The translations under genes were made by a program, and so were the position numbers. A model generated the notes under the pieces. It saw nothing but the letters and a program-made list of their open reading frames with translations. It searched no databases and was not told the origin of the DNA. From assembly GCF_014696615.1 (NCBI RefSeq), contig NZ_JACJQJ010000034.1, positions 1 through 64,000 on the forward strand: DNA of 64,000 nt. Direction: 5' to 3'. Within the stretch, counting starts at the first letter, position 1, and each line of letters opens with the position of its first letter. Positions 26,572 to 56,917 of the stretch are shown one piece after another. This stretch comes from Nostoc linckia FACHB-104 (GTDB taxonomy: Bacteria; Cyanobacteriota; Cyanobacteriia; Cyanobacteriales; Nostocaceae).

Positions 26572-29500
26572 TCAACCTTCCATCGGTAAAACTTCCTCAT
26601 CTAGCAAGGCATAAAATTCTGGAACAGCAGCATAAAGTTGCCGCAGTTCATGAGGATATCTTGCTTGGCACTCCAACACAGTCTCCCAGCGCAAAACTCC
26701 ACTCCATCGCTTGAGAATGACTTTAATTGCGTCCACTCCTTGAGCAACAACAGAACGAAGCATTTCCACACAATGGAGTAGGGAAATGGGGTCAGTAGGA
26801 GGTGGGTCAAAATCCGTAGTAACCCCCCCCTGATCAGGGGAGTTAGCTATACATTTATGGGGGGGGGTGGATACGGGCTGTTGTTTTCGCTCTACAGCAG
26901 ATTGGGGCTGCATGATCGCCTGTAATGAAGTGGGAGTTTTGCCAACAGAACTTGTATTCGACTCTTTGAAGGTACGCCCTTGTTGACGGTGAGCAATTAC
27001 ATGAAAAGCAAATTCTAATTCCTCTAGTGAAAGTGAGTAAATTTTCACTTGTTGACCGCGTGGCCCCTGTTTGCGGCAGGATAACTTGAGTCCCAGCTGC
27101 TCAACTAAAATAGCTAGTAACCAAATGGGTTCGCAGTCAGAGGGGACGGTAAAACCAAGAATTGCTTTAATATGAGCAGCACAATGTGAGGCAATCTCCC
27201 TCATATTCAGTAAGTCTGGGTCGGTTGCCGTCATCTCGCCCCCGGCTATCAATCGTTGAAGAATGTGATGTAAACCCAAATTGAAGCGGGCCAGCCAACG
27301 CGCCGAGTAATTCCCCCAGTCGATGCATAAAGGTAATTTTTCGCGTTCGGTGCGGTCTTTATCTGTGACAATTTTTGGTGGTGCTGGATATTGCCTCCCT
27401 GTTTTAGGGTCAACAATTGAATCGAAAGGTTGTTCTAAAATTGCTTCTAAGTCGGCAAGCGCACCAATTAGCCGACCACCCGCATCTTTTTCAACGAGTT
27501 GGGGGGTGACCTCCATACCGTAAGCTGACCGAATACGATACTTCTCGCACTCAAAAACTGCTTCTGGTGGCAAGTAATCTTTGCTCTTACGCTGACGATA
27601 CTCAGTTGCTGTAATATCATTAGCCCTGGTAACAGCCAGATGATAAGCAGTATCCAAAACCGCCGCAGATTTTTTCAAATTTTCCAGGGAAAGCAGATCG
27701 TCATTACTCCCTACTGAGATAAATATATTGCCCATCTCTGACAGCAGCGAGCGCAAATCATCACGCAGATTATTGATAGACTGGTTGCGGTTGGCCAAAA
27801 TTTGGCAGTAAGCCTCTAGCGCCCAATCTTTCTCTGCACCCCGCTTACCAGTTTGACGGTCAATTCGCAACAAAAAAGCCGTCATTTCGTTTGTTTGCAG
27901 TAAGCGTTCTTTAATTTTGGCGGCGTTAGTGTCTTTGTAGCCAAAGGGAGGGCGCTTTGCCACCCAAACGTGAAATGGAACTAAGGGACGATAACGATAC
28001 AGCTGTTGGGCGCACTCAGTTGCAGTTTGGGAAACTCCATGAAACGCACCAAAAACCACATCAAAATGATATTGGGCAATGTCTACTCCAGTCCCGAGGC
28101 TGGGAGAGGTTAGTAAAGCATCAAGGTTTTTGACGGCGTTGGTAATATCTTTGATGAAAGCAATGTTTTCTTCAGCACCGGAGTTATCTGAATGAATAGA
28201 CCAGATGCGTAGCTGATTTTTCAAGGCTTGCAGATTTTGCTCGTCAGCGCTATTTTTGTCGTCTTTTGAGCAGATTTGCACTGTGAGTGACTGTTCAAGT
28301 TTTTTAATAAAGCGCTTCGAGTCAGAAACTACCATAATTTTTTGCCCACTCATCAGCGCTGCTGAAATTTGAGCAACTAGAGCGCTGGAATTATTACCTT
28401 CATACCAGTAAATAGTCCGCTCTCCATTTCGCCACTCGTTTTTGATGATGTATGGGACTTCTGGTTGTGGTCGCATTGCTCGAAAGAAGTCGATGGTAAC
28501 GTCGTCCATGTGAGCATCAGCTATGACAACCAGTGGAGCATTGTATACTATATATTCCAGTACTTCGATTATTGCGGCGCGATGTTCCTTGCAAGTGTTA
28601 CTGTGCAAAAGGTGTGTGAGGTATTGGCAAGCTTCATCAATAAAGATGCAGCCGTAGGTGAGGGCTTGAGTGTTGAGCTTATGCAAGCTATCAATAGTAA
28701 TGCTCAAAGCAGTAGCTTGAGCTAAGCCTACATAACCCAATTCTGAGTACATGGCAGTTTCTAAGCGCAGAGCCAGATTTTTCAGCAGGTTAACGCGATG
28801 TCCGTTGTTGAGGAATCTTGCTGTTGGATTTTGGTTACGCCACCAGCGCATGAGTTCAGTTTTACCTGTACCCATATCACTCCACAAAACCACAAGCCCT
28901 GATTGAGGAAAGCGAAAAGATGCTCTGCTCCCAGAAGAATATTGGGCACAGGTGAGAGAATGGCGGTAATTTTCGACTAGGTTTTTGGAGTCAGATAGAT
29001 GGGTTGCTGCACAGCTAACTTCGTGCGACTCAAATTTTGGAGTCATGTCTTGGGGTTGCTGTAAAGCTAATTGTGTCTGACTCCCCTGTTTTAGGGACTG
29101 AGGTGGACAATGAGAATTAACTTTGGGGGTGAACAATTGTGCTTTTGCTTCCTCATCAAAATTGGGAATGTCCAAAGCTTGGGTTAGATATTTGATATTG
29201 ACTGTCACATCTGGTTTATATTTGCTGAGTCCCCATTTTCTAGCACGATAGGAGCGCCGATAATCAGCCAGTGCTTTGGCATCATCAATAATTGCCAACA
29301 GTAGTGCTAAAGCATCCTTACCCCTAGAGACCACAAAATCATCAACACCTTTTTCTGGCCCTGGTAATAACGCCACTTCAGTTGTGCAACCGTATGCCTC
29401 AATTGCTTTAGCCGTGCGAACTGTTGCTTGAAAAACTGACCAGCGGGTCGAAGCTTTTGTTTCATAATCGAAGAGAATAATAAACTTGCGCCCGCTTCCT

Positions 29501-30183
29501 GCCAAGGGTACTAAGTCTGGATGTAAACGTTCATCAAAATCCTGCGATCCCACGCGCCCGTTCCAAATTCCCGGGAGTGCGAGCGCTACAAATCCATGAC
29601 TGAGTAAACAGGCTGCTTTTTTCTCTCCCTCACAAAGAATGATGGGAATTTCTTTATGTAACTGCACCCACTCCCAAAATAAGCGTGGGTTGAGTCGGTC
29701 AAACAGACGTAATGCTAAGGGAGAATGATATCGTTTGATATTGTATCGTCGGGCAACTTGATCCCAAATACTGTTGGGGACATCAAAGTAAGTGACGCGG
29801 TTGGGTGTTTTGGGAGGAGATTCGTATTTGACGGGTTTGTTTTTCTCAAAATCAATGCGGGGATGATCTGGTTTGAAACGTCCCCACTCCATCGGAAGCC
29901 AATTGTTGAGTGGGTCTAGTCCATTTACCCACCATCCCCCCAATGTCGTGTGGGCATATTTTCTTAAGTATCCATCTCGTAATCGCCCATCGTTACGTCT
30001 GGCTGTTTGGGGTAGTGCGTAAAGTAAATATTCATATACTATTGAGCCACTAAGAGAACGAACATTGAGCGCAGTTAATTGGGGGTCAACACCTGAAGCT
30101 GTTACCCATTCAAGCCAATGGTTGTCTGTTAATTGGTCTTGACCATTCGTAACATTGATATTAATTACATTGGGAAGTGTCAT
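26572..30183 (-). CDS. Plasmid replication protein, CyRepA1-like (DUF3854 + helicase)
   Basis: The 1203-aa product has an N-terminal DUF3854 region: TOPRIM-like motifs IILCEGEKKAA (about 181-191), IILFDYET (235-242) and GPEKGVDDF (275-283). A superfamily-type NTPase/helicase follows, with Walker A SDMGTGKT (435-442) and Walker B CIFIDEACQY. This is the layout of the cyanobacterial plasmid initiators named CyRepA, which combine primase-like and helicase-like parts. The C-terminal 200 residues follow a low-complexity linker encoded by C8 and G9 runs. The ATG at 30183 has GGAGG 8 bases upstream, partly inside a hairpin. The N-terminal 300 residues resemble the C-terminal module of the relaxase at 47.3-51.8 kb. 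Confidence 0.75.
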   Translation of the reverse strand: MTLPNVININVTNGQDQLTDNHWLEWVTASGVDPQLTALNVRSLSGSIVYEYLLYALPQTARRNDGRLRDGYLRKYAHTTLGGWWVNGLDPLNNWLPMEWGRFKPDHPRIDFEKNKPVKYESPPKTPNRVTYFDVPNSIWDQVARRYNIKRYHSPLALRLFDRLNPRLFWEWVQLHKEIPIILCEGEKKAACLLSHGFVALALPGIWNGRVGSQDFDERLHPDLVPLAGSGRKFIILFDYETKASTRWSVFQATVRTAKAIEAYGCTTEVALLPGPEKGVDDFVVSRGKDALALLLAIIDDAKALADYRRSYRARKWGLSKYKPDVTVNIKYLTQALDIPNFDEEAKAQLFTPKVNSHCPPQSLKQGSQTQLALQQPQDMTPKFESHEVSCAATHLSDSKNLVENYRHSLTCAQYSSGSRASFRFPQSGLVVLWSDMGTGKTELMRWWRNQNPTARFLNNGHRVNLLKNLALRLETAMYSELGYVGLAQATALSITIDSLHKLNTQALTYGCIFIDEACQYLTHLLHSNTCKEHRAAIIEVLEYIVYNAPLVVIADAHMDDVTIDFFRAMRPQPEVPYIIKNEWRNGERTIYWYEGNNSSALVAQISAALMSGQKIMVVSDSKRFIKKLEQSLTVQICSKDDKNSADEQNLQALKNQLRIWSIHSDNSGAEENIAFIKDITNAVKNLDALLTSPSLGTGVDIAQYHFDVVFGAFHGVSQTATECAQQLYRYRPLVPFHVWVAKRPPFGYKDTNAAKIKERLLQTNEMTAFLLRIDRQTGKRGAEKDWALEAYCQILANRNQSINNLRDDLRSLLSEMGNIFISVGSNDDLLSLENLKKSAAVLDTAYHLAVTRANDITATEYRQRKSKDYLPPEAVFECEKYRIRSAYGMEVTPQLVEKDAGGRLIGALADLEAILEQPFDSIVDPKTGRQYPAPPKIVTDKDRTEREKLPLCIDWGNYSARWLARFNLGLHHILQRLIAGGEMTATDPDLLNMREIASHCAAHIKAILGFTVPSDCEPIWLLAILVEQLGLKLSCRKQGPRGQQVKIYSLSLEELEFAFHVIAHRQQGRTFKESNTSSVGKTPTSLQAIMQPQSAVERKQQPVSTPPHKCIANSPDQGGVTTDFDPPPTDPISLLHCVEMLRSVVAQGVDAIKVILKRWSGVLRWETVLECQARYPHELRQLYAAVPEFYALLDEEVLPMEG

Positions 30184-43456: not shown

Positions 43457-45223
43457 ATGACTGAAATATCCAAAACCACTCAACCAGTAGATAACCTTGT
43501 TCCTCAAAACTTTTACAATGCGTTCTTCTCCCCGATGGGTTTGGCATTACTTGTAGGTGTTGGGGCGCTAATGTTAGCGAAAGCAATGGAAGGACGCGGC
43601 GCATCTAACAAGTTAGCACGGGCGCGATGGGCGGGCGCTAGGGAGAAAACAGCAGCTCGTAAGTTGGCTTGCAAACAAATTACTGAGCGTAGACATAACA
43701 GAGTAGCTCTCTACATCGGTACGCCTGTGGGTACGAAATCTCAGGTTGTTGACAACAAACGCATTACCAATATTCCTGAAGATAAAAGCCGACTCTATCT
43801 GCCAGATGTGCAACGGGGAATTTTGGTTTGCGGCGGTGCTGGTTCAGGTAAAACCTTCTCGATGATTAATCCCCTGGTGCGTTCTGCTATCGACCAGGGA
43901 CTACCAATTATTCTCTATGACTTTAAATATGCTCACCAAGAATCGGCTACATCTGCTGCTAAAGGGCAAGCACCCAAATTAGCAGGATATGCAGCTATGC
44001 ATGGGTATGAGGTTTCTATCCTCGCCCCCGGCTTCCCGGAGTCCTGTGTAGCTAATCCCCTAGATTTTCTGCGGAGTGAAACTGATGCAGAGATGGCACG
44101 TCAATTAGCGATCGTTCTCAACCGCAATTTTAAATTATCTTCTGGAGGTGATGTCTCGGACGGTGGTTTCTTCGTTAATGCTGGAGATCAGTTGGCTCAA
44201 GCAATTTTCATGCTGGCTAGGGGTACTGATTTCCCGGATATTATGATGTGCCATGCCATTCTCAGTCTGCCTAAATTAATTGACCGTATTCAACAAGCTT
44301 CTTTGAATCCTTGGGTAAAAGTTGCTTTTGACCAATTTCTTTCTGTGGCTGGTTCTCCAGAAACCGCCGCTAGTATTGTCGGTACTACCAGCGGGTTATT
44401 TACTCGCTTTATGACCCCTTCTACTCTTTCTGGCTTCTGCGGTCAAACAAATATCCCCTTGGATTTGAAAGGGCGGAAGATGGTGGTTTTCGGCATGGAC
44501 AAGGAGAAGCGAGATGTGATTTCTCCTTTATTGGTGTCTATCCTGCACCTTTTATGTTCTCGCAATTTGGCTGGTAAACGCAAAGAACCATTGCTATTGG
44601 CACTAGATGAATTACCAACTTTATATCTACCAGCTTTGGTAGATTGGCTCAATCAAAATAGGGAGGATGGCTTAATTTGTTTACTAGGATTACAAAATTT
44701 ATCACAGCTTGAAAAGTCTTATTCTAGAGAAACTACCAACGCTATCTTTGGCGGTTGTGCTACGAAGGCTTTCTTTAATCCTCAAGATGATGTAGCGGCT
44801 GAACGTTTTAGTAATTTCTTAGGTGATGAACAAATTAAGCATAGAGAACGTTCGCGTAGTTCTGGTGGTAAAGGTGGTGCAAGTACCTCAATTTCTGAAC
44901 AAAATAGTACCCGCAATTTATTTGAAGTGAACCAATTTAATACTTTACCGGAAGGCAGAGCCGTAATTGTCAGTCCTGGGTTTCGCTCTGGTCAAAATGT
45001 AAGTATTCCGTTATTAGAGCAGATTCGGATTCCGCCATCTGATATGAATTTAGAGGCTAAAAGTATTGAGAAATGGTACGAACTCCAACAAAAATTTATT
45101 TCCCAATCTACTCTGCTTATACCATCTGCTCAAGAGCTAGAAAGGCGAAATTTAGCAGCAGAAAGATTATTACCTTTAGTTGAGAAGCAGGCAGAAGCAA
45201 ATCAGAAATTAAAAAATCTTTAG
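43457..45223 (+). CDS. VirD4/TraD-like type IV coupling protein
   Basis: The 588-aa product has one N-terminal membrane helix (MGLALLVGVGALMLA), then the coupling-protein ATPase: Walker A CGGAGSGKTFSM (126-133 core), Walker B PLLLALDELPTL and a following LLGLQNLSQLE motif with Gln. These hexameric pumps bring relaxosome DNA to the secretion channel. The start is 2 bases after the previous stop. The family's single extra-membrane anchor is shorter than usual (one helix seen). Confident assignment. Confidence 0.85.
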   Translation: MTEISKTTQPVDNLVPQNFYNAFFSPMGLALLVGVGALMLAKAMEGRGASNKLARARWAGAREKTAARKLACKQITERRHNRVALYIGTPVGTKSQVVDNKRITNIPEDKSRLYLPDVQRGILVCGGAGSGKTFSMINPLVRSAIDQGLPIILYDFKYAHQESATSAAKGQAPKLAGYAAMHGYEVSILAPGFPESCVANPLDFLRSETDAEMARQLAIVLNRNFKLSSGGDVSDGGFFVNAGDQLAQAIFMLARGTDFPDIMMCHAILSLPKLIDRIQQASLNPWVKVAFDQFLSVAGSPETAASIVGTTSGLFTRFMTPSTLSGFCGQTNIPLDLKGRKMVVFGMDKEKRDVISPLLVSILHLLCSRNLAGKRKEPLLLALDELPTLYLPALVDWLNQNREDGLICLLGLQNLSQLEKSYSRETTNAIFGGCATKAFFNPQDDVAAERFSNFLGDEQIKHRERSRSSGGKGGASTSISEQNSTRNLFEVNQFNTLPEGRAVIVSPGFRSGQNVSIPLLEQIRIPPSDMNLEAKSIEKWYELQQKFISQSTLLIPSAQELERRNLAAERLLPLVEKQAEANQKLKNL

Positions 45224-47021: not shown

Positions 47022-47312
47022 TATAGGGTGTAGGGGGTAGGGTGTGGGGAATGAAGAGGATGGTTTATTTTGATGTATTAAAATCTAATAATCTTGACCC
47101 TGTTTTGTGACTTTCAAAAAACACTTTCAGGCAAATTATAAGACTTAATTTAATCTTGGACTGAGGCTTTAATTTTCGCCCCGTCAATTTAAATTTATAG
47201 TCAAGGAGTGAAAATTAAAGCCCTATAATCTTTTGAGAGATTGAATTGTCCTACTGCTGACAAAACAGTGTTGAACCCTATACCCTACACCCTACCCCCA
47301 ACACCCTATTAT
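47022..47312. repeat. TAGGGTG-type heptamer repeats in inverted clusters flanking an operon end
   Basis: G-rich words (TATAGGGTGTAGGGGGTAGG) at about 47022-47056 and their complement (CCCTATACCCTACACC) at about 47276-47312 face each other across about 220 bases between the convergent T4SS operon and relaxase gene. They are STRR-type repeats, able to pair or to form G-quadruplexes. Confidence 0.6.
47165..47222. terminator. 13-bp inverted repeat between convergent operons
   Basis: GGCTTTAATTTTC (47165-47177) and GAAAATTAAAGCC (47210-47222) are perfect inverted copies with a 32-base spacer. Between two converging transcripts this could be a bidirectional terminator or processing structure. It lacks a long T run. 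Confidence 0.45.
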
Positions 47313-50300
47313 CTTCTCATTCCCCTCGTATGCTTTGGTGATTGCTCATACTTAGCTGCTGTTTTAGCTATCTTTTCCTGTTCTTTTCGCCATAATTCTT
47401 CTTTAATATTGGTCAATCTCTCTTGTAGTGGCGGCGATTTTAAAACATCAGCAATAGTTTTCATTTCAAGAGTTTTCTGTTCTTTCTCCCAGGTTTCATG
47501 ATTTTGAACCTGGGATTCCCATTGCTGGATTGTTGATTCTAAGTTTTGTTTTCGAGTAAATAATTCTTTAATAGTTCCTATAGTTTCTAATTGTTTATTT
47601 AAAGCCGAGTTATATTTATTACTCAATTTATGAAGTGGGAAATATTCCATTACTCTGATAGATTTCTCTTGAATAGCATGTTCTATCCATAAACTGTCAA
47701 GTTGTTGTTGTAATTGATTAATTTGGCTAGAAATTGCTTGTCTATCAATTGTCGGTGGCAGTTGTGCTAATGAATCTGAGAAATATTCATTAACAGCTTG
47801 TTCTAAGTATAGTAACTCAAGGTTAGTTAGTTCATTGATTGCTTTGCTGAATGATGAAAAAGTAGTTTGCTCCTCTAAACGTTGTTGCAGTCGTTGCTTA
47901 CGTTCTTCAATACTCAATTTCTTGGGTGGTGCAGGTGAAGCATGACGCTGTTGATTATTGTTATCTCGCCAAGCTTTGAGAGTTAATGCTTCAGAATATG
48001 CTTTCTCGTATGCTAGTGGCCCCATTACCGCAATCAAATCATCAACTCCTTTATTAGGGCCTGGCAATGTCACCACACTGACCCTAGCACCCTGTTCCTC
48101 CAATAATCTACCAGTGCGCGAGATGGCAATTTCTATATTTCGTTGAGTTTCAGTCCGCGTCTCGTAGTCAAAGCAGAAACTGATTTCTCGTTCTGGCGTG
48201 GCGAAAACAGCTAACTCATCCATGAGTCTAGCTTTCATCTTTTCCCTGTTCTCATCTTTACTGCGATAACCGGCGTAAATCCCTGGTAGTCCAATGGCAG
48301 GGTGTCCCTGGCTCAACAGACTGGCAGCTTTCTTCGCTCCCTCAGTAATTGTGACTGGGAGATTATGTTTCCAAACACAGTACCAAAATCCCGAAGTGCG
48401 ATCGCACTCGCTTGGTTCTACCCCAAATTTTTCATAGATACACTCTGCAATGTCATCAGGCACATCTAATAAGAAAATACTCAGTTCAGTTTTGGGTGGA
48501 TGTTCATATTTAATGAATTTGCCGGGTTTATCGGCTTTTTGTCTTGGATTATTGGGCTTATAACATCCCCATAACTTACGAGCAGGTTTATCTCCAGGCT
48601 GTAGGTTAGCAAAGGATTTAGGATTAACGCCAGCGTCACACCACCAACCTCCATCTTCAATGTGAGCATATTTGCTGATCATGGCATTGGAGAGTCTACC
48701 TGTGTTAGTGCGTGGCAGTTTGTCGCTGTACATCAGGTATTCCCAAGCTTCATGCTCCCAATCGAGAGTTTGATGCAGACTTTTGAAGTTAATGGCGGCA
48801 ATTTCTGGGTGAATGGCACTGTCTTCTACCAATTCTCGCAAGTGTTGAGAGTCTAGTCTTTCGGGGGCTTCACCCAAATCACCGGGAGTCCAAAATGCTA
48901 CTGTAGGCTGTGCTGTTTTTGGGATTGGTTTTTTAATAACAGGCGATTGAGTAAGAGGCGGAGGAGCGGAGGGGCTGAGGTGCGGAGGTGCTGGGGTGCT
49001 GGGGCGCAGAGGGGAAGAAGTAGGCAGAGAAACTGGGGCGCTCTTGTGTAGAGGGGAAGAATTGGGCAGAGAAACTGGGGCGCTGGGACGCTCTTGAGAA
49101 GAATTTGGCTCTGGTGCAGAGGTGCAGTGGGTCTGAGAAGAGGGTTTACTGTAAAATTGCTCCTCTGCTCCTCCGCTCCTCTGCCCCTCTGCCTCAACCT
49201 CTCGCTCCTCTGCTTCCGGGCTTCTAGCTACAATTACAGCATTTGTAACCTGTTCTCTCTCTAGTGTTGACTGGTGTTGCTTCTCTAATTCTTTCTGGCG
49301 TAGTACAAAGAGAGCATTTTCTTTAGCCTTACTCAACTGTGCCAAGGCTAGTAAATTATCTTTATCTTCCGTGTATAGTTTCAAATCATACCTGGCACGG
49401 CTAACAGCAACATAAAAGCTTTCCTGCCCAATGGTATGGTCAGCAGCTATCAGCACAGAGTCGGCAGTTTTCCCTTGGCTACTATATGTAGTGCTGACAA
49501 TCGCATAATCTAGGTGCTGGGCTTGTTGCAGGTTGACTGATTCGGTTAGACCACTATCTAAATACTCAATTTGAGCTTTATTACCATCAATGGCTTTAAC
49601 GACAAACTCCTGACCGTTACGCCGTCCTAATTGTCTGTCGTTTTTTGTCCAGCGTAGGCGATCGCCCTTGGCAATTTCAATACTTTGTCGTTGGTAAACT
49701 GCTTTGTTAAATCCCGTGTCTACTTCAAGTTGCTTGCCATCAGTAGCCTTTAGTAGCAATCGGTCGGTGTCCTTGCCCACGACTTCATACAGTTTGCCTT
49801 TCTCTAAGCCCCGGCGCTTGTAACTACGGGTGGGCATGACTAGATCCCCCGGTTCAAAGTTGTGGGTGTAGCGCTTCTGCACTGTTGTGAGATCTTTGGC
49901 TTGCAGTTGAGTGATGTTTGTTACATGACCCAAGCTGCCATCAGCTTTTTTATGCTCCCGAATCGCTTGGGTGATTGCTAAACGCTCCTTATTTGTGCCA
50001 GCTAGTACCAGGGTTCGCGCCTGTTGCTCTGCTGTGGCTGTCATGTATTCACGAGCGATCGCCTCAATTTTGTCAGATGCTGTTACAGTCTGGATATAAC
50101 CATTTTCATTGAGGCGTGAAAATCCTTCTTCAATCCTACCAGAAGCAATCAGGTCTACTGCCAGCTTGAGCTTTGGCGCACGTTGCCTATTAGAAGAGTT
50201 TAAATGGCTGGTCTTGATTCCTGCCTGTTGCAGAGATTTGAACGGGTTGCCAGCTTCTACAGCTGATAACTGTTTTGTGTCTCCCACTAACAACACTCTG

Positions 50301-51829
50301 GCTTGCTCTTGGGTTGCGCGTTCTAAAAGGGCAAGGGCATCTTTGGCACTAAGTAACCCTGCTTCGTCTACTACCCAAATTTGATTAAGTTCAATCTCTC
50401 TTGGCGGTTCAGACACCAATAATCTAGCAACTGTCTCAGCTTGAACATCTAACTCTTGACTCAGAACTTTAGCAGCCATCGAACTGGGGGCAAAACCTTT
50501 AATGGTATAGCCAGAAGTGGCGGCGATTTCCTTCAATTCCTTGAGTGCAAAAGTCTTACCAGCACCAGCTACACCCTGCCATGCCATGAATTGGTCTGTT
50601 GTGGTTGCTGCTGTCAGTACCGCTCGACGCTGATCTGGGTTTAAAGCAGTTTTTTCCAAATGGCTTTCAACTACCTCTTGATGGGCAAGTGCGTTAACTT
50701 TACCCTGCCCGGACTGCATCAATTTAATGGTCGCCAATTCTCGGTTAACTGCTGCCAGGGTTGTAAAGTCGCGGGATTCTTGAGACAGACTAAGTAATTC
50801 AGAGTTAGCTTTTACTAGCGGTTCAATAAGGCTTACATCCGTGGCTAGTCCCTGGTTTAGAATGAATTTTTCTAAATCTTCCTGGGTGAAAGCGACGTTT
50901 CTTTCTGAGCAGTGGGCGATCGCCATAGCTAAATTCTCATGGCTGACTAACCTCTGTTGTAGTTCCGGCTGCGTTTCAAGAGCCTGGACAAAGTTAATCC
51001 CCAATGCTGCTGCTTCTTCTCTCCACTTAGCTTTTAACTCTTGGGGGTTGATTTTCTGCTTTAAATTCCGGGTAGCAGTCCAAGCCGCTTCTCGCTCGGC
51101 CCAAGTTGCATTTTCACCTGCTGCATTTAATATTTGCTGTCTGCGTTTGGAGAATTCTTGTAAATCCTGTTCTTTAAACCCTTTAATCTCAAATTGTCCG
51201 TGTTTTCTAGGTTCTACCTGATACCCTAATTTCTCTACCTCTATTGCTAGGTAGTTCTGGTACACCATGCCGAGAAATTTCTTATTTTTGAAAATCTCAT
51301 CGTTGAACAGACTGTACCATTTACCATTTTCTAGCTGCGTCATATTCATGACTAAAGCATGAGTATGCAGATGTGGGTCTAGTTCCCTAGTTTCAATATG
51401 GTCAAACTCCGCGACTACTAGGTTGTTAGTCCTGATAAGTTGCTGTCCCTGTTCAGTTGTGGCTCTGGTGTAGCTATAACGTTGTTCAATGAGTTTAATG
51501 GTTTTTTGTACAGCCAACTGATGGGCAGTAATTAGCCTTTCATCCCCAGCCACCAACGCTTGCAGGCTAACACTTTTCGGTGCGGAGAAGGTAAAGTCGG
51601 TTGCGGCGCGACGTTGAGATGAGTTTAACTTCCTAGCACAGAGGTTTTGGCTGCCGTCAGGCGATCGCCCATTAACAATGTTAGAAAATGTTTCTTGATG
51701 ATCTACTGCTCCTGATAGTCCTAATTTTTTTGCACCCTGAAGAGACCAGCGTGAAGTACCTTCCTGGTAATACCCTTCCATGAAGTAATGTACTGCCTGT
51801 TGTGGTTCTGTATTCTTTCCTGTTAACAC
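47309..51829 (-). CDS. MobF-type relaxase-helicase fused to a DUF3854 Rep-like domain
   Basis: The 1506-aa product has three modules. (1) A TrwC relaxase, with candidate catalytic Tyr20/Tyr21 in FMEGYYQEG and the metal-binding DPHLHTHALVMN (His153, 155, 157). (2) A TraI/RecD-like helicase, with Walker A WQGVAGAGKT (419-426 core), WVVDEAGLL, LVGDTKQLSAV and STTYSSQGKTADSV. (3) After a Pro/Ser-rich linker encoded by heptamer repeats (about 945-1010), a DUF3854 region (about 1030-1330) with VTITEGAKKAASLL, CFDYET and GPNKGVDDL, matching the N-terminus of the CyRepA-like protein; a coiled coil follows. The relaxase nicks oriT and unwinds the transferred strand. The added domain may prime or re-initiate synthesis. 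The start is GTG with GGGGGTGG upstream. Confidence 0.85.
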   Translation of the reverse strand: MLTGKNTEPQQAVHYFMEGYYQEGTSRWSLQGAKKLGLSGAVDHQETFSNIVNGRSPDGSQNLCARKLNSSQRRAATDFTFSAPKSVSLQALVAGDERLITAHQLAVQKTIKLIEQRYSYTRATTEQGQQLIRTNNLVVAEFDHIETRELDPHLHTHALVMNMTQLENGKWYSLFNDEIFKNKKFLGMVYQNYLAIEVEKLGYQVEPRKHGQFEIKGFKEQDLQEFSKRRQQILNAAGENATWAEREAAWTATRNLKQKINPQELKAKWREEAAALGINFVQALETQPELQQRLVSHENLAMAIAHCSERNVAFTQEDLEKFILNQGLATDVSLIEPLVKANSELLSLSQESRDFTTLAAVNRELATIKLMQSGQGKVNALAHQEVVESHLEKTALNPDQRRAVLTAATTTDQFMAWQGVAGAGKTFALKELKEIAATSGYTIKGFAPSSMAAKVLSQELDVQAETVARLLVSEPPREIELNQIWVVDEAGLLSAKDALALLERATQEQARVLLVGDTKQLSAVEAGNPFKSLQQAGIKTSHLNSSNRQRAPKLKLAVDLIASGRIEEGFSRLNENGYIQTVTASDKIEAIAREYMTATAEQQARTLVLAGTNKERLAITQAIREHKKADGSLGHVTNITQLQAKDLTTVQKRYTHNFEPGDLVMPTRSYKRRGLEKGKLYEVVGKDTDRLLLKATDGKQLEVDTGFNKAVYQRQSIEIAKGDRLRWTKNDRQLGRRNGQEFVVKAIDGNKAQIEYLDSGLTESVNLQQAQHLDYAIVSTTYSSQGKTADSVLIAADHTIGQESFYVAVSRARYDLKLYTEDKDNLLALAQLSKAKENALFVLRQKELEKQHQSTLEREQVTNAVIVARSPEAEEREVEAEGQRSGGAEEQFYSKPSSQTHCTSAPEPNSSQERPSAPVSLPNSSPLHKSAPVSLPTSSPLRPSTPAPPHLSPSAPPPLTQSPVIKKPIPKTAQPTVAFWTPGDLGEAPERLDSQHLRELVEDSAIHPEIAAINFKSLHQTLDWEHEAWEYLMYSDKLPRTNTGRLSNAMISKYAHIEDGGWWCDAGVNPKSFANLQPGDKPARKLWGCYKPNNPRQKADKPGKFIKYEHPPKTELSIFLLDVPDDIAECIYEKFGVEPSECDRTSGFWYCVWKHNLPVTITEGAKKAASLLSQGHPAIGLPGIYAGYRSKDENREKMKARLMDELAVFATPEREISFCFDYETRTETQRNIEIAISRTGRLLEEQGARVSVVTLPGPNKGVDDLIAVMGPLAYEKAYSEALTLKAWRDNNNQQRHASPAPPKKLSIEERKQRLQQRLEEQTTFSSFSKAINELTNLELLYLEQAVNEYFSDSLAQLPPTIDRQAISSQINQLQQQLDSLWIEHAIQEKSIRVMEYFPLHKLSNKYNSALNKQLETIGTIKELFTRKQNLESTIQQWESQVQNHETWEKEQKTLEMKTIADVLKSPPLQERLTNIKEELWRKEQEKIAKTAAKYEQSPKHTRGMRR
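48940..49200. repeat. Heptamer (STRR-type) repeats inside the relaxase gene
   Basis: GGAGGAGCGGAGG, GGTGCTGGGG and GCAGAGGGGAAGAA words repeat through about 260 bases. Similar sequence occurs at 51842-51890, 52285-52335 and 56970-57090. In the relaxase it is translated in frame as a Pro/Ser/Leu linker. Confidence 0.7.
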
Positions 51830-51893: not shown

Positions 51894-52280
51894 TCAACGT
51901 TTCATTAACCACGGTTCAGGTTTGCTAATCATGTTTACTAAGCCGCCCAAGATTCGGTTGTAAGTTCCATAAAGTTCTCGCGCTATTTCTACATCCAGAT
52001 AGCCACATTTCACAGCAAATTCAATCCATGTTTGCGTTTCAGCCGCTTCTGCTTCACAATCATTTAATTTAGCTACAAATGCTGCTTCATAACGCCGTTT
52101 ACGCCAAGCCTCAGCTAAATTAGCACAGACAGAACGTGAGGAACGACGAATCTGATCAGTTAGGGAATAGCGTTCTTCAACAGGAAACTTTTTAGATACG
52201 TCAAATATTTTCATTGCTGCATCAAAAGCCATCTGGTAAATTTCTAACTCTTTATGATTCTTGATATATTCTCTTGTCAT
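51894..52280 (-). CDS. Four-helix-bundle protein (S23/IVP-like)
   Basis: The 128-aa product matches the small four-helix bundle family found in 23S rRNA intervening sequences and in many mobile elements (HKELEIYQMAFDAAMKIF, FPVEERYSLTDQIRRSSRSV, CANLAEAWRKRRY). Its molecular role is unknown; homologues often accompany retroelements or plasmids. It overlaps the upstream gene's stop by 4 bases and precedes the relaxase by 64 bases of repeat DNA, so the three leftward genes probably form one operon. Confidence 0.8.
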   Translation of the reverse strand: MTREYIKNHKELEIYQMAFDAAMKIFDVSKKFPVEERYSLTDQIRRSSRSVCANLAEAWRKRRYEAAFVAKLNDCEAEAAETQTWIEFAVKCGYLDVEIARELYGTYNRILGGLVNMISKPEPWLMKR

Positions 52281-52768
52281 CTGTTTTGCCCCTCCGCTCC
52301 TCTGCTCCTCCGCTCCCTCTGCTCTCTTCCTCTCCTTTCATAGAATTTCAGGTTTAGCGGTTGGAATAATTCAGGTATTTGGCACAGATCACTGATGACA
52401 AATTCAAGTTCTATATCTGGGGAATTTTTGAGGAAGCTTATTATCTTTTCAAAGTGCTGACCATCAACGCACCAAACTTTGAATGAAGCATAACGGTTGG
52501 GCTTTATCTCATAAAAAAATCTGTCACTCTTTGGTAGCTTTCTAAATACTTCCACAGCATCCGGATGATATTTACAAAAGTTAAAACCTACCCAGTTAAT
52601 CAGTTTAAAATAGGCGATGCGGATGACGACACTACCCCAATCCCTTGTTGTAGAGGATGAACGACTACTCCAGTAAGGGCTGTTCTTCCAGAAACACATC
52701 GACATCATCTGCTGCGCTTGAGTCTTTAAAAGCGCAAGAGTTACTTTCTGTAGTATTGGATAATTCAA
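52277..52768 (-). CDS. Hypothetical protein with repeat-encoded C-terminus
   Basis: The 163-aa product is unrecognised. The core (residues about 50-140: YPILQ..., HPDAVEVFRKLPKSDRFFYE, DIELEFVISDLCQIPELF) looks folded. The last about 20 residues (ERRGREQRERRSRGAEGQ) are encoded by heptamer repeats at 52285-52335, so the natural end was overwritten by repeat insertion. It overlaps the four-helix-bundle gene (ATGA). Confidence 0.45.
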   Translation of the reverse strand: MNYPILQKVTLALLKTQAQQMMSMCFWKNSPYWSSRSSSTTRDWGSVVIRIAYFKLINWVGFNFCKYHPDAVEVFRKLPKSDRFFYEIKPNRYASFKVWCVDGQHFEKIISFLKNSPDIELEFVISDLCQIPELFQPLNLKFYERRGREQRERRSRGAEGQNR

Positions 52769-52881
52769 AACTTAATATTTATTAATACCGCTTTGATACC
52801 TATTTAAATTTTAAATTATTCTCCATTTTTTTGGGCAAAACTTTTTTGCGTACTGTGCGAAAAAACTAATTTGGAAAAGTA

Positions 52882-53063
52882 ACATGGATTTAACATGAAA
52901 CCGACATAAAACTGACATGAATTTACCAAGGATTTAACATAGAAGCTATGTTAAGAAACATAGAGTTACCATGAAAATCACATGAATGTAACTTAGGATT
53001 AACAAGAAAATTACCAGAGTTTACCATAGATTTCACATAAAACTGACATGACACACTGATGTG
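52882..53063 (+). promoter_or_regulatory. parC-like centromere: about 15 ACAT-type sites at 11-bp spacing
   Basis: Sites beginning ACATGA, ACATAA, ACATAG, ACCATG or similar start at 52882, 52893, 52904, 52915, 52925, 52937, 52958, 52968, 52980, 52991, 53002, 53013, 53023, 53035 and 53046. Steps are 10-12 bp, apart from one 21-bp step that contains an inverted copy (CTATGTTA). A CACA-CTGA-TGTG hairpin closes the array. The actin-like gene starts at 53103. Eleven-bp iterons in front of parM are the known layout of ParR-binding centromeres such as R1 parC. Confidence 0.7.
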
Positions 53064-53102
53064 TTTTGTTACCGAGATTTTCATCTACTGAGTCATTAAA
53101 TT

Positions 53103-54221
53103 ATGAACCCATTAACACTGGCAGTAGATCCGGGTGGTTCTTTTCTCAAATGTTTCTACACTTTGGAAAGCTTTAAACCGGAACTTATTTTGATGGAGCC
53201 GGAAGTCGCTACAGTTCCGCTAGAAAGTTTACAAGCTTACGAACAAAGTAAGGTTGGTAGTTCTTCTCCTGAAAATAGTGCTTGGATTGAATATCAGGGA
53301 CACTTTCAAGCTGTTGGCTTTTTAGCTAGGAAACGCTTTAATGCAGATTTACAACTGCAACGTCGTAAGTTTGAACTGGCTTTACCTAAAGTCTTGGCGA
53401 TTGTAGGAGCGATCGCAGATAAACATGATTTACCCAATGATTCTTCTATTAGGTTAGGTATCTTACTTCCCTGGGGAGAGTACCAAGATAGAGCTTTGTT
53501 TGAGGAGTTAATCACTAAAGCACTTGCTGGTTATCGCTTTAAAGGTCATTCTAAATCCTTTGTGTTGGATACTTTCATGTGTCTGCCAGAAGGCGGTGGC
53601 ATCCTTACTAGAGGCCGCGCCCCCGGCTCTAGTATTAAAGACCAGACTGTAGCAGTGATTATGCTGGGATACAGAGATACTTCTATCCTGGTGATTGAAC
53701 GCGGGGAAATGAGCAAAGGTAAAACTGAACCTTTGGGATTTTCCAAAATGATTGAATCTGTGATGGCGCAAACATCTGGCTTAAATTCCCATCAGCTAAC
53801 TGCGGCAATTTGCAAGGCGGGACGGAATATTAATCCCAAAGCGTTAGAGGAGTTGGCTTCTGTGGATGCTGCTTATCAAGAGCATGAGCTAGCCACAATT
53901 AAAACTGCTGTCACTAATGGCAGAAAAGAATACTGGATGATGTTGTCTAATTGGTTGAAGTTGCAAGTTCCTCGTGATGTAGGTGAAGTGATTATTGGTG
54001 GGGGCACAGCTCACTATTTTCGCTCTCAACTGAATAATCTTTTCTCTAACGCTACGGTTAATTGGTGCGAGAATTTAGAATCGCAAATCACCAATAATTT
54101 TTCTCTTGTCACTGCTAAATCCCTGCAATACCGTCTCACAGATGTCTATGGATTATTTTTCTATCTGTGCGGTAGCAGTTTGAAACAGAATCAAGTGCAA
54201 GTAGGTACTGCCAATGGATAA
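53103..54221 (+). CDS. parM: ParM-like actin ATPase for plasmid segregation
   Basis: The 372-aa product has the actin/Hsp70-fold landmarks of ParM/StbA proteins: phosphate-1 LAVDPGGSFLKCFY, phosphate-2-like VAVIMLGYRDTSILVIERG and the adenosine motif EVIIGGGTAHYF. ParM polymers push plasmid copies apart after binding to ParR-parC complexes. It lies 40 bases after the 11-bp iteron array and overlaps the next gene by 8 bases. Length is slightly above R1 ParM (320 aa). The phosphate-2 loop differs from the classic D-x-G-x-T form, so activity details may differ. Confidence 0.78.
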   Translation: MNPLTLAVDPGGSFLKCFYTLESFKPELILMEPEVATVPLESLQAYEQSKVGSSSPENSAWIEYQGHFQAVGFLARKRFNADLQLQRRKFELALPKVLAIVGAIADKHDLPNDSSIRLGILLPWGEYQDRALFEELITKALAGYRFKGHSKSFVLDTFMCLPEGGGILTRGRAPGSSIKDQTVAVIMLGYRDTSILVIERGEMSKGKTEPLGFSKMIESVMAQTSGLNSHQLTAAICKAGRNINPKALEELASVDAAYQEHELATIKTAVTNGRKEYWMMLSNWLKLQVPRDVGEVIIGGGTAHYFRSQLNNLFSNATVNWCENLESQITNNFSLVTAKSLQYRLTDVYGLFFYLCGSSLKQNQVQVGTANG

Positions 54222-54666
54222 CCTGATTGAGTACCGATGTCGAATTGCTATAGAAGCTCAAGAATCCAATGTCGCTCTGGTGAATTTTCTCAAAACTAAG
54301 GAGACTTTAGCTTTTACTGAGAGAGATAAAGTTTTTTCAGCCCTTTCGGCTTATTGGCTACCTTTTGCTATGAGGAATGCCGGATGTTCTCCTTCCGAAT
54401 CAAAGCAGTGTGCTAAGAACGCTATCTATCGGTTGAAGTTGCATATTAGTTATCTGGTTGAAAGTTTTGGTCTAGATAATGAAGATTTTGTCACTCAACC
54501 CGTAAGAGCTACCGAGCCAATTTCACCAGTTAACAAAACACCAAAGGTTGATGTTGATTTGACACCATCAACTGCTAAGGCGAGTTCAGAAGATACGCCT
54601 GAACTTAATTTAGAGCAGTTGATACATCACGAAGATGACAGCACTTTTGAAGGATTATTTAATTAA
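54214..54666 (+). CDS. Candidate ParR adaptor
   Basis: The 150-aa product has a helical N-terminal domain (IEYRCRIAIEAQESNVALVN ... AFTERDKVFSALSAYWLPFA) with basic residues. An acidic, disordered C-tail ends HHEDDSTFEGLFN, a form that could dock on the actin filament as ParR tails do. Start overlaps parM. Size, position and tail fit a ParR adaptor, but no ribbon-helix-helix was recognised, so this rests mainly on context. Confidence 0.5.
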   Translation: MDNLIEYRCRIAIEAQESNVALVNFLKTKETLAFTERDKVFSALSAYWLPFAMRNAGCSPSESKQCAKNAIYRLKLHISYLVESFGLDNEDFVTQPVRATEPISPVNKTPKVDVDLTPSTAKASSEDTPELNLEQLIHHEDDSTFEGLFN

Positions 54667-54677
54667 TAGGGGGTAAT

Positions 54678-55454
54678 ATGCCTTATACCAAAGAGGCGTT
54701 ACAAAATATGTACGCTCTATCAACAGAAGATGTCAATGCATCTCTAGAAATTTGTGGATTACCTGTAGATAAACAGGAGTATGGTGATGAAGAAATTGCG
54801 GCGGTTGATTTTCAACAAGCAGTTGATTTAGTCAAACAACAAAACTCTAATACATCCACTACACCAGAAAATGATGCTCCAGAAGGTAAGAAGAAAAGGA
54901 AGACTAAACCGTTAGATACTACCGAGTTACTTGCTAAAGCTCGTGACAAAGGGGTTAAGCTCACCCTGGTAGAAACTATGCAAGTATTAAAAGCTTGTGG
55001 GCTATCAGAAAAGGAAGAATATTCTCAGTCTGAATGCGATCGCTTTCTAGAAGCTTGCGATTTAATTAAAAAGCAGCACAAATCTGTTGAGGAAGTGGCA
55101 CAACATTTTGGGGTAACTACCGATAGTCCTCCACAATTTGAGGATGTAGATACAAGTGAGCTTCTGCAAGAACTAGGAGAGACTACAGCTTTATTGGGGG
55201 AAGAGGAGCGAGAGTTAATCAGAGAAATGGTGCGACAGAAGGCTAAGGGTGATATGGCTGGGCTGCCTAAGTTGTATTTGCAATCATTAATTGAGGAGAT
55301 GAAATCGTCACAATTTCAACAGGAGTGGCAGCAACTACGAGATGCTTTCAAAGCTAGGATCATGGGAAAAAAGCCAACTTCCCCAGCATTCCCGCATCAG
55401 TTGCCTTTGATGAGCTTGCCACCGACATCGGAGAATGGGTCAACATCCGAATAG
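54678..55454 (+). CDS. Third gene of parM operon; tandem helical domains, -1 frameshift site
   Basis: The 258-aa product contains two related segments (LSTEDVNASLEICGLPVDKQ ... FQQAVDLVKQQ and LVETMQVLKACGLSEKEEY ... FLEACDLIKKQ), suggesting internal duplication. A helix-rich region follows (EEERELIREMVRQKAKGDM). At 55367-55373 the frame reads A AAA AAG, a strong -1 slippery heptamer. The 27 codons after it are Pro/Ser-rich and non-descript (PTSPAFPHQLPLMSLPP). The -1 frame instead stays open to 55864 and encodes a folded-looking tail with a membrane helix. A possible filament- or DNA-binding third component of the segregation cassette. Confidence 0.6.
   Translation: MPYTKEALQNMYALSTEDVNASLEICGLPVDKQEYGDEEIAAVDFQQAVDLVKQQNSNTSTTPENDAPEGKKKRKTKPLDTTELLAKARDKGVKLTLVETMQVLKACGLSEKEEYSQSECDRFLEACDLIKKQHKSVEEVAQHFGVTTDSPPQFEDVDTSELLQELGETTALLGEEERELIREMVRQKAKGDMAGLPKLYLQSLIEEMKSSQFQQEWQQLRDAFKARIMGKKPTSPAFPHQLPLMSLPPTSENGSTSE
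55356..55373 (+). promoter_or_regulatory. dnaX-like programmed -1 frameshift signal
   Basis: The zero frame is ATG GGA AAA AAG CCA, giving slippery A AAA AAG at 55367-55373. A Shine-Dalgarno-like AGGA (55356-55359) lies 7 bases before it, as a stimulatory SD does in E. coli dnaX. The -1 frame has a stop at 55355-55357, just upstream. A downstream CCGACATCGG mini-stem is weak. Confidence 0.55.
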
Positions 55455-55864
55455 CTGATGAAAAGCGTACTATTGAGGTCAAAGCACACAAAATTATTGA
55501 GGAAAAAGCCAAAAAGAGGGCTACAGAAATAGCCTTGACCAAGCTCAATGAATCTCAACAATGGATTGAGGTTGAACAAAAATGCTCTCAACTTAGGAGG
55601 CAGCGCTCACATGAATTGAGAGTAAATTTAATTCATTTTGCTCACTGGTTATGTTCTGGCTGGTCTGGCTGGTTATTTTATTTAATTTGGTTTGCAATCT
55701 TCAGTTCTTTGGGTTTCACTTTAGGTATTAACTTCCCTTCTGTGATTGCTTGTCCCAATACCAACGGTTTTTGCTACCTTTTACGATTGGATAAAACAAA
55801 AGTTGTTATTCCTAGTGATTACATTCAACAAACATCTCCAAAAAAATCCAATCGTCAACGTTAA
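55373..55864 (+). CDS. -1 frame extension with membrane segment
   Basis: This frame has no ATG, GTG or good start before TTG 55535, but reads open from the slippery site. It gives 163 residues beginning ANFPSIPASVAFDELATDIG, a charged helix (HKIIEEKAKKRATEIALTKL), then hydrophobic WLCSGWSGWLFYLIWFAIFS. Joined to the first 232 codons of the upstream gene it would make a membrane-anchored protein of about 395 aa. Otherwise it is the second half of a gene broken by one inserted A. Confidence 0.55.
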   Translation, partial: ANFPSIPASVAFDELATDIGEWVNIRIADEKRTIEVKAHKIIEEKAKKRATEIALTKLNESQQWIEVEQKCSQLRRQRSHELRVNLIHFAHWLCSGWSGWLFYLIWFAIFSSLGFTLGINFPSVIACPNTNGFCYLLRLDKTKVVIPSDYIQQTSPKKSNRQR

Positions 55865-56106: not shown

Positions 56107-56145
56107 AATATAAAGAGGGTAGTTAAAAACTACCCTCTTTATATT
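56107..56145. terminator. Bidirectional terminator, 18-bp perfect stem
   Basis: The arms at 56107-56124 and 56128-56145 are perfectly complementary (core GAGGGTAGTT / AACTACCCTC) with a 3-base loop and A/T-rich outer parts on both sides. They lie between the rightward partition genes and the 3' end of leftward ardA; the ardA stop codon overlaps the stem base. Confidence 0.8.
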
Positions 56146-56917
56146 AGTGACGACTAAAAACGTAGACTTTGTTGTAGCTTTCTTCTACTGAATAGTAGAA
56201 GTCAATAAACCAATCACGGGCTATTGCTGCCCAATTGAGGTAGAAGCTAGGAATACCCATGTCTTCTAAGTTTTTAATCAATCCTTGTTGTTCGAGTTGA
56301 TCATAAACAAAGTCTTCTTCACTTTCGTACTCACCCCAGTAATGTTCCTGAAAATCTTCTACGCTAGCTTCACTACTGTCATATTGATAATAAGCTGCAT
56401 AGGCTGCACCATGCTCTGATAAAATTTGGGCTAGTTCGGCTAGTTTTTCTATGCTTTCGTATTCACTAAGATGAATACCATACCAGTTTTGAAAATCATG
56501 TATTGCCCACTCTTCTCTTCGAGACACTTCGTGAACGCAGGCTTCATAATTATGACAGGGCGACCAAGATAACATCCATTCAATGTCTTCTTGAATGTCT
56601 GAGGCATCTTGTGTACAGTCGATCCACATTCCGTGTAATTTACCGTTGTTATATGCAGATAAACAGGCTACATAAATCTGTGGTGCATCATCATCTTGGC
56701 ACTCACGCTCATGCTTGGGGAAAGGAAGTAAACAGCTTGCACCTTCAACTATTGGTAAGGCAACACCTGCTAAATTGATTGCTAAATTTACTGCCCTCTG
56801 TTCTCGAATCGGACAGATTAAAACATTACCCTCAAGATGGCAGTTGTAAACTTGTTGGGCAACTAATTGAGCATCTTGTTCTGAGTGAAATATGAGGGTG
56901 TTAGAAAACAAATTCAT
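56144..56917 (-). CDS. ardA: ArdA-type antirestriction protein
   Basis: The 257-aa product has an N-terminal extension of about 75 residues, then the ArdA body: PQIYVACLSAYNNGKLHGMW, IDCTQDASDIQEDIEWML, EEWAIHDFQNW and the acidic C-terminal part (EHYWGEYESEEDFVYDQL, IPSFYLNW). ArdA mimics DNA and blocks type I restriction enzymes, protecting plasmids on entry to a new host. The protein is very acidic, as expected. It is divergent from a region with heptamer repeats; the N-terminal extension is unusual for the family. Confidence 0.82.
   Translation of the reverse strand: MNLFSNTLIFHSEQDAQLVAQQVYNCHLEGNVLICPIREQRAVNLAINLAGVALPIVEGASCLLPFPKHERECQDDDAPQIYVACLSAYNNGKLHGMWIDCTQDASDIQEDIEWMLSWSPCHNYEACVHEVSRREEWAIHDFQNWYGIHLSEYESIEKLAELAQILSEHGAAYAAYYQYDSSEASVEDFQEHYWGEYESEEDFVYDQLEQQGLIKNLEDMGIPSFYLNWAAIARDWFIDFYYSVEESYNKVYVFSRH

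Follow-up and report, generated by a model that had tools for sequence, protein, structure and literature searches.

Organization of the locus

We analysed a stretch of 64,000 nucleotides from Nostoc linckia FACHB-104 (contig NZ_JACJQJ010000034.1, positions 1 to 64,000), referred to here as the window, in which positions 52,882 to 55,864 had been read from the letters alone as an actin-type plasmid segregation cassette. The locus holds, in order, a probable nic element of an origin of transfer (oriT), an array of short direct repeats (iterons), a gene for a ParM-like actin ATPase, a small overlapping gene that is the candidate for parR, and two further genes (table 1). We conclude that a type II partition cassette (actin-type, ParMRC-like) probably lies here within the oriT and leading region of a MobF conjugative plasmid, a reading drawn from the sequence and its relatives. 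The original prediction was right in outline, but it missed that the cassette is one swappable half of an oriT–centromere region, of which there are many copies without par genes.

Table 1. Features of the window at and around the cassette, with position, strand and the basis of each assignment.
Feature	Position	Strand	Basis
VirD4/TraG-type coupling protein gene	43457..45223	+	Pfam TrwB_AAD_bind 9.8e-25, TraG-D_C 1.4e-24
MobF (TrwC-type) relaxase-helicase gene, C-terminal DUF3854	47309..51829	-	Pfam TrwC E 4.8e-85, DUF3854 E 5.9e-43
Probable oriT nic element: hairpin GCAAAA-CTT-TTTTGC, then directly GTACTGTGCG	52835..52859	+	read from sequence, R388 likeness
Iteron block 1, six 11-bp sites	52877..52942	+	motif fit
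Spacer between blocks (one 21-bp step), part of inverted repeat CTATGTTAAGAAACATAG	52943..52952	+	read from sequence
Iteron block 2, nine sites, 10–12-bp steps	52953..53051	+	motif fit
Box cACTGATGTGTTTTGTTACC...TACTGA, found after arrays of the window's type with or without parM	53054..53091	+	by eye
parM-like actin ATPase gene	53103..54221	+	PDB profile matches to CorM, Cbc-ParM
parR candidate: N-terminal domain helical, linker of low confidence, tail ending FEGLFN with a short C-terminal helix	54214..54666	+	alignment, AlphaFold2, iteron co-variation
Gene 3, putative hinge protein: N-terminus tracks ParM and iterons, C-terminus tracks relaxase	54678..55454	+	correlation over 40 loci
Gene 4, small open reading frame (ORF), one hydrophobic stretch (by eye)	55535..55864	+	shared with the backbone of a plasmid bearing a different par cassette
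ArdA antirestriction gene	56144..56917	-	Pfam ArdA E 6.6e-40

The iteron array

How regular are the repeats? A fit that was given only a preferred spacing of 10–12 bases (and its doubles), and no motif, placed 15 sites in the 420 bases 5' of the ParM-like gene. Their steps are 11, 11, 11, 11, 11, 21, 11, 11, 11, 11, 12, 10, 11 and 11 bases and their consensus is AatTaACATga. They are organized as two blocks, of six and nine sites, spanning 52877–53051; the array starts 17 bases 3' of the nic element and ends 51 bases 5' of the ATG at 53103. At 128.6 the score of the fit lies above all 100 dinucleotide shuffles fitted identically (mean 65.3, standard deviation 5.2, maximum 84.5), which rules out chance repeats. 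The count of repeated 4-base words in the region also peaks at distance 11 (z 6.3). Nine of the 15 sites contain an exact ACAT; the remaining six carry variants of it, among them ACCAT, ACTT and ACAAG. The fifteen ACAT-like sites at 10–12-bp steps with one 21-bp step, ending about 50 bases before the gene, are thus as they had been described.

An order-wide DNA search with the array, scoring just two candidates per genome, gave matches in 5 of 291 genomes. A further element, recognized by eye 3' of the arrays of the window and of plasmids lacking parM, is the box ACTGA-N-TRTTTTRTTACY-N-TACTGA, which is retained at loci with just three to four iterons (L029 and L030).

The ParM-like protein and the ParR candidate

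The family profile of the 372-residue ParM-like protein matches CorM (E 6.2e-22) and the clostridial Cbc-ParM (E 1.2e-8) in PDB, and these matches bear out its proposed identity. The protein also matches the partition-protein family phrog_691 (E 5e-9), and finds no match in Pfam. A DPG at residues 9–11 and a GGT at 300–302, which we take to serve as the phosphate-1 (DxG) and adenosine motifs, are both present. The only other ParM-like proteins of the same genome are 28–30% identical to it.

The next gene overlaps the first by 8 bases and its product ends in DDSTFEGLFN, just as a small overlapping gene with an acidic tail had been proposed. When the product is aligned with 22 relatives, a common helical core and a near-invariant W-x-P-x-A emerge, and many members share a C-terminal D..F tail. 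The AlphaFold2 model, of mean predicted local distance difference test score (pLDDT) 70, has helices at residues 17–27, 36–55 and 60–84 and a last helix at 142–148; confidence is low over 97–140 and no strand is assigned. ParR proteins consist of a helical core and a C-terminal tail, and the candidate fits that layout. It has no match in Pfam, NCBIfam or PDB sequence profiles. In R1 and pB171 the order is repeats, parM and a small parR; the same parC–parM–parR order, with direct repeats in two blocks, holds in the window as predicted.

Iterons follow ParR, not the relaxase

If the ParR candidate recognizes the array, do the two change together from plasmid to plasmid? We sampled 12 plasmid loci and 69 genome loci, among which L014 and L032 are one locus entered twice. 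Of 45 MobF-linked parM homologues from genomes, 41 have an array that scores above all eight of its own shuffles, so that the spacing pattern is present beside close parM homologues; the nic pattern precedes parM in 38 of the 45. The repeat unit itself differs between clades, being ACAT, CCACA, TTGACG, CCTT, GCCA or TTGGGA, the last at a 10-bp period.

Iteron profiles were compared over 44 loci, the window included and L014/L032 counted twice, that have a relaxase segment of more than 220 residues, an array above its own shuffles and a recognizable ParR. Spearman correlations of their similarity are 0.64 with ParR identity, 0.79 with ParM identity and just 0.17 with MobF relaxase identity. Given the relaxase, the partial correlation with ParR is 0.63 (p=0.001); given ParR, that with the relaxase falls to 0.06 (p=0.096), and we reject the iterons as mere relaxase sites. 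These p values come from label permutation, which ignores shared ancestry. The comparison across related plasmids that the original prediction had called for thus finds the iterons and ParR co-varying. The repeats may be specific for their own ParR, as this co-variation suggests; the N-terminus of gene 3 co-varies with them too.

Pairs of plasmids make the same point. The window and AP018239 (L023) have relaxase segments that are 90% identical, ParRs that are 35% identical and unrelated iterons (0.22). In Nostoc sp. UHCC 0302, two plasmids (L017 and L020) have relaxase segments that are 99% identical, ParRs that are 33% identical and different iterons. Genome G476 carries three nic-linked arrays, all different.

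Where does the exchanged unit end? Gene 3 starts 11 bases 3' of the parR candidate, and it could be followed in 40 of the 44 loci. Its N-terminus (residues 1–62) correlates with ParM at 0.75 and with the iterons at 0.74. Its C-terminus (from residue 150) correlates with the relaxase at 0.75, and at 0.73 given ParM (p=0.002); with the iterons, given ParR, it correlates at 0.04 (p=0.22). Consistent with this, the window and AP018239 share 93% of their DNA letters between 54994 and 55870, while the ParMs are about 40% identical. What is exchanged on the conserved conjugation backbone is thus the array together with parM, parR and the 5' end of gene 3, and it is in gene 3 that the unit joins that backbone.

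Gene 3 has no family match above cut-off in Pfam and none in PDB sequence profiles; two similar repeats within it can be seen by eye in the alignment. Its product may link the partition complex, through its N-terminus, to backbone or relaxosome proteins, through its C-terminus. The third gene had been proposed as an added component of the cassette. That holds for its N-terminus, but not for its C-terminus, which belongs to the conjugation backbone.

A probable nic element precedes the array

The element at 52835–52859 reads GCAAAACTTTTTTGCGTACTGTGCG and consists of a six-pair hairpin followed by GTACTGTGCG. The nic oligonucleotide of plasmid R388 is given as GGTGCGTATTGTCT/ATAG and the R388 substrate as GCGCACCGAAAGGTGCGTATTGTCT/ATAG (PMC4814116); that substrate has the same arrangement as the window element, and TGCGTAYTGT is common to both. 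The window element has both the hairpin and the GCGTAYTGT-like sequence that we used as a test for a MobF oriT, and a TrwC-type relaxase is encoded beside it. The 48 bases from 52815 to 52862, which cover it, are identical in the Microchaete diplosiphon plasmid AP018239, even though the ParMs are about 40% identical. We conclude that 52835–52859 is probably the nic region of an oriT. The array is not an isolated centromere; it adjoins this probable oriT, which is absent from the original prediction.

Arrays without parM

Does the pairing of nic element and array extend beyond parM? The pattern TTNGCGTANTGTGCG was searched in 217 genomes of the host's family and occurs at 142 places in 66 of them, against 11 for the reversed pattern (hand count). 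We analysed the 125 places lying in fetched stretches. The 17 excluded were the window's own and that of contig C7 of the same genome (both read separately), one at a contig edge and 14 with a variant core; these 14 are likelier to be chance matches, some in chromosome-sized contigs, and their exclusion raises the share with arrays. For two of the 125 the downstream sequence was too short for the test. As each stretch extends about 3.5 kb to either side, a distant parM would be missed. The genome set overlaps the named plasmids, so that nic sites and named loci do not count as independent samples.

A parM lies directly downstream in 35 of the 125 sites, and 32 of these 35 have a periodic array at p ≤ 0.01. 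In eight a ParM is found elsewhere in the stretch (array in 7 of 8), and in 82 there is no ParM in the fetched stretch (array in 60 of 82). At p ≤ 0.02 an array directly follows the nic element in 34 of 35 sites bearing parM, 10 of 12 with MobF and no parM, and 52 of 68 with neither. On the upstream side, in the subset with enough sequence, 0 of 35 parM sites and 11 of 78 others have an array. Arrays accompany 84 of 93 nic sites with a hairpin and 20 of 30 without (Fisher p=0.007). MobF lies within 3 kb of all 35 parM-bearing sites, and is absent within 3 kb of 68 of the 80 testable sites that have no parM in the stretch.

We compared the class of the repeats using arrays with p ≤ 0.01 and a score of at least 85, 29 of them with parM (window included) and 63 without. 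Of the latter, 58 match a parM-linked iteron class (correlation at least 0.8), against 1.6% of column-permuted controls. Arrays of the window's own type are also found on plasmids whose adjoining 4–5 kb contain no parM (in one of them a ParM gene lies about 5 kb away), and on contigs C7 and C97 of the window's own genome; its contig C142 carries an array of another class. Some of these sites are not true orphans: at eight a divergent ParM is found farther off in the stretch, four of the eight having a ParR-profile match as well, and 9 of 62 arrays lie within 4 kb of a small protein whose family, judged from one member, resembles ParR. Five complete orphan plasmids and the whole of C7 yielded no ParM, ParR or gene 3 homologue in a profile search of six-frame ORFs at E 0.5, in which the window, as positive control, was matched by all three profiles.

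Upstream of 32 of the 62 orphan arrays, within 4 kb, lies a member of a Mob_Pre (MobV)–DUF3991–Toprim relaxase family, an assignment made from one scanned full-length member (a shorter one shows just DUF3991 and Toprim). Because many orphan units stand beside another type of relaxase, the nic element there need not serve a MobF helper. Two transfer systems may meet on one plasmid where this family adjoins an orphan array. A separate family of about 106 residues, represented by one scanned member with no Pfam match, lies within 4 kb of 19 of the 62 arrays, mostly at +380 to +490 after nic, and is a possible partner of the orphan unit.

Proposed mechanism and the evidence against it

How might the cassette work? 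ParR would bind the two-block iteron array (parC), its C-terminal peptide would cap filaments of the ParM-like protein, and growth of the filaments would separate plasmid copies. Exchange of the array along with parM, parR and the N-terminal part of gene 3 would change the specificity of partition, and plasmids with the same backbone could then share a cell. Other plasmids would have taken up the nic-plus-array unit without par genes because the array abuts the nic element, and they probably depend on helper plasmids. We infer the binding of the iterons by ParR, the formation of filaments and segregation; that partition works in this way is the most likely reading, and anatomy and co-variation argue for it. 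A bolder reading, by analogy with other plasmids, is that partition may be coupled to transfer. The shared unit of origin plus repeats, found without actin genes, suggests that plasmid inheritance and transfer are coupled.

The proposed ParMRC-type segregation cassette is therefore retained as to its array, gene order, ParM homology and co-variation of iterons with ParR. It has to be amended because half of the third gene belongs to the backbone, the array adjoins a probable oriT, most arrays of the kind found in the family lack a neighbouring parM and a methionine replaces an aspartate of the ATPase.

Several findings weigh against this reading. The aspartate of the phosphate-2 DxG motif, a catalytic residue in actins, is replaced by Met187 in the ParM-like protein, whereas CorM and Cbc-ParM keep it in the HMMER alignment. 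Across 81 aligned ParM-like proteins (window included, one locus twice) the position is Met in 77, Val in two, Ile in two and Asp in none, a count biased towards Met since loci L032–L100 were fetched with two patterns, one of which includes V-x-M-x-G; all 12 loci retrieved by BLAST, in which that pattern played no part, have Met. With the aspartate absent, the ATPase may be non-canonical. The monomer of the ParR candidate found nothing in PDB by Foldseek at E ≤ 0.001 (best E 1.3), so that a ribbon-helix-helix fold is not established. Promoter-like sites in 52700–53200 show no excess over chance (three found, 2.2 expected), and a layout of the R1 type, with the promoter between the blocks, thus gets no support. 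Four of the 45 MobF-linked homologues have no array above their shuffles; among testable homologues without a MobF segment, 12 of 22 have an array and ten have none. Finally, two contigs of genome G111 share the same fitted array motif, which speaks against strict incompatibility: compatibility would not be absolute.

Alternative explanations

Could one array serve both partition and transfer? The nic element and array would then form a single oriT–centromere unit, ParR (with ParM, and bridged by gene 3) would act as a relaxosome accessory, and orphans would have to copy both the nic and the iterons of their helper. We regard this as possible, though less likely than not. It would account for the position of the arrays directly 3' of nic at all three kinds of site, for the parM-linked classes of the orphan arrays and for the hinge-like gene 3. 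Two precedents also favour it. In R1, ParM and ParR stimulate the TraI relaxase and, by the paper's title, enhance conjugative transfer (PMC4949242). In R388, 9-bp repeats with a spacing of 2 (an 11-bp period) lie in two sets of five around the stbABC promoter, beside oriT; StbA binds them and affects stability and transfer, and the stb genes are the first to enter the recipient (PMC3098194). On the other side, the R1 study states that ParR does not bind the R1 oriT (PMC4949242). Within the regions inspected, three arrays have no preceding nic element (HK-01, full; UHCC 0870 and NIES-4101, truncated), and the hairpin is absent, by the hairpin test, from 20 of 104 array-bearing sites. The iterons do not follow the relaxase, half of the orphan arrays (32 of 62) lie near a Mob_Pre relaxase, the iteron classes within a genome do not agree significantly (see below), and shared descent alone could give the linkage.

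The orphan arrays might instead be stolen centromeres, their plasmids being partitioned by the ParM and ParR of a resident plasmid, much as the satellite SGI1 carries parS mimics and uses the parABS partition genes of its IncC helper (PMC10954446). The shared iteron classes and the orphan plasmids that have no ParM, ParR or gene 3 homologue fit this account, which we nevertheless consider doubtful. Over 26 arrays, the class match between orphan and parM-linked arrays of the same genome averages 0.588, slightly above the 0.528 expected by chance, and is not significant (p=0.079), which also tells against the helpers proposed above; stable use of a resident helper is thus not established, and helpers that come and go would fit. 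ParA is, moreover, encoded on the orphan plasmids HK-01 plasmid7, CENA543b and M. diplosiphon plasmid10 themselves. SGI1 is an integrative island with a parABS system, whereas the window has actin-type iterons joined to a nic element and the use of a helper is conjectural.

A composite of these ideas is equally doubtful in our judgement. It would have an oriT–centromere in Nostocales plasmids in which one array serves actin-driven segregation and mobilization, with gene 3 bridging ParR and ParM to the relaxosome; satellites would copy nic and the iterons of one ParR class so as to be served by helpers of that class, the iteron class would be a barcode for compatibility and mobilization, and the ParM filament would work without the usual catalytic aspartate.

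Might gene 3, and not the 54214 protein, bind the array? Its N-terminus co-varies with the iterons even when ParR is given (0.62), so that gene 3 could be the iteron binder, and this too counts against ParR as the binder. Weak MerR matches in 2 of 18 gene 3 members (best E 0.027) point the same way. However, ParR retains an independent correlation with the iterons given the gene 3 N-terminus (0.38, p=0.002), and the 54214 protein fits a ParR by position, size and tail; the structure model of gene 3 is poor (pLDDT 61.5) and uninformative. Binding by gene 3 is, on balance, unlikely.

Nor is it probable that the repeats have nothing to do with ParM and ParR and act just as accessory sites of oriT or as replication iterons. 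They do adjoin the nic element and occur without parM, and an annotated CyRepA1 replication gene stands 0.6 kb before one orphan array, large genes before others. But the iterons are independent of the relaxase once ParR is given, they change with parM and parR on near-identical relaxases, and plasmids typed MOBF, MOBP and MOBV alike carry arrays of the window's type.

A role of the pair in cell shape like that of FcmBC, rather than in plasmid partition, is very improbable: CorM, a cell-shape protein, is the closest solved relative and there is a weak NCBIfam FcmB match, but at 59 bits against a curated cut-off of 300 we reject FcmB membership, the pair lies on a contig with transfer genes, beside an iteron array, and fcmBC is chromosomal in several genomes checked by its authors (PMC12645912).

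Comparison with known systems

The window resembles the ParMRC systems of R1 and pB171, which have direct repeats of 11 and 10 bp, respectively, upstream of parM (PMC9426499), in that a small parR then follows. It has 15 iterons where R1 has ten, in two sets of five (PMC4949242), and its array adjoins a MobF-type nic element. It differs further from both in the third gene that bridges to the conjugation backbone, in the Met for the phosphate-2 Asp and in a ParR candidate without family or fold match. With the stbDR–stbABC region of R388 it shares a MobF relaxase, an oriT and repeats of 11-bp period beside that oriT; the gene downstream, however, is an actin-like ParM and not StbA with the Walker ATPase StbB, and Pfam finds no StbB-like Walker ATPase domain in the four genes 3' of the array.

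Closely related conjugative plasmids of Clostridium perfringens differ in their parMRC family, and the specificity of ParR for parC sets their compatibility (PMC9426499). In those of the pCW3 type the repeats are 17 bp long, and the accessible part of that source mentions no link to oriT and no orphan arrays. The nearest characterized actin relatives that we found are FcmB/FcmC and CorM of filamentous cyanobacteria; FcmBC is chromosomal and acts in cell shape (PMC12645912), and CorM keeps the canonical Asp. A literature search on CorM and CorR in the context of ParMRC and cyanobacteria found no paper. In the titles and abstracts listed, a scope outside which lie most subscription papers and all preprints, there was no earlier report of a cyanobacterial MobF nic site, of an oriT with iterons or of orphan parC arrays.

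What follows from this arrangement? It provides a natural series of conjugative backbones that have near-identical relaxases and different par cassettes, alongside dozens of contigs that carry the nic-plus-array unit with no parM in reach. The coupling of segregation and conjugation reported for R1 and R388 becomes directly testable by swapping arrays. The unit may also offer a sequence signature by which transfer origins of filamentous cyanobacteria can be recognized; mobility was predicted in one survey, by its own account, from conjugation genes alone (PMC8600333). How ParM filaments use ATP could be tested on an actin that lacks the phosphate-2 Asp.

Flanking genes and other observations

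ArdA genes are typical of leading regions, and one lies beyond gene 4. The contig also encodes a HerA/TraG-type ATPase, and a TrbI-like match falls below the Pfam cut-off (31.7 against 35). A second DUF3854 protein, of 1203 residues, is encoded at 26572–30183, besides the C-terminus of the MobF relaxase. Between the MobF gene and the nic region, at 51894–52280, lies a gene for a 23S rRNA-intervening-sequence protein, and genes of similar size stand there in two relatives.

Nic-like elements also occur as pairs in opposite orientation, 2.3–7.4 kb apart. In the window's own genome such a pair lies on C97, at 40836 (-) and 46171 (+), and others are found in G304 (C10 and C13), G308 (C3 and C4), G403 (C9), G469 (C5), G419 (C64) and G348 (C1). 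Some have a MobF segment near one member, and most have an iteron array at both. On C142, at about 43786 and 44580, a 10-bp orphan array of the TTGGGA class lies about 0.8 kb from another VirD4-type coupling protein.

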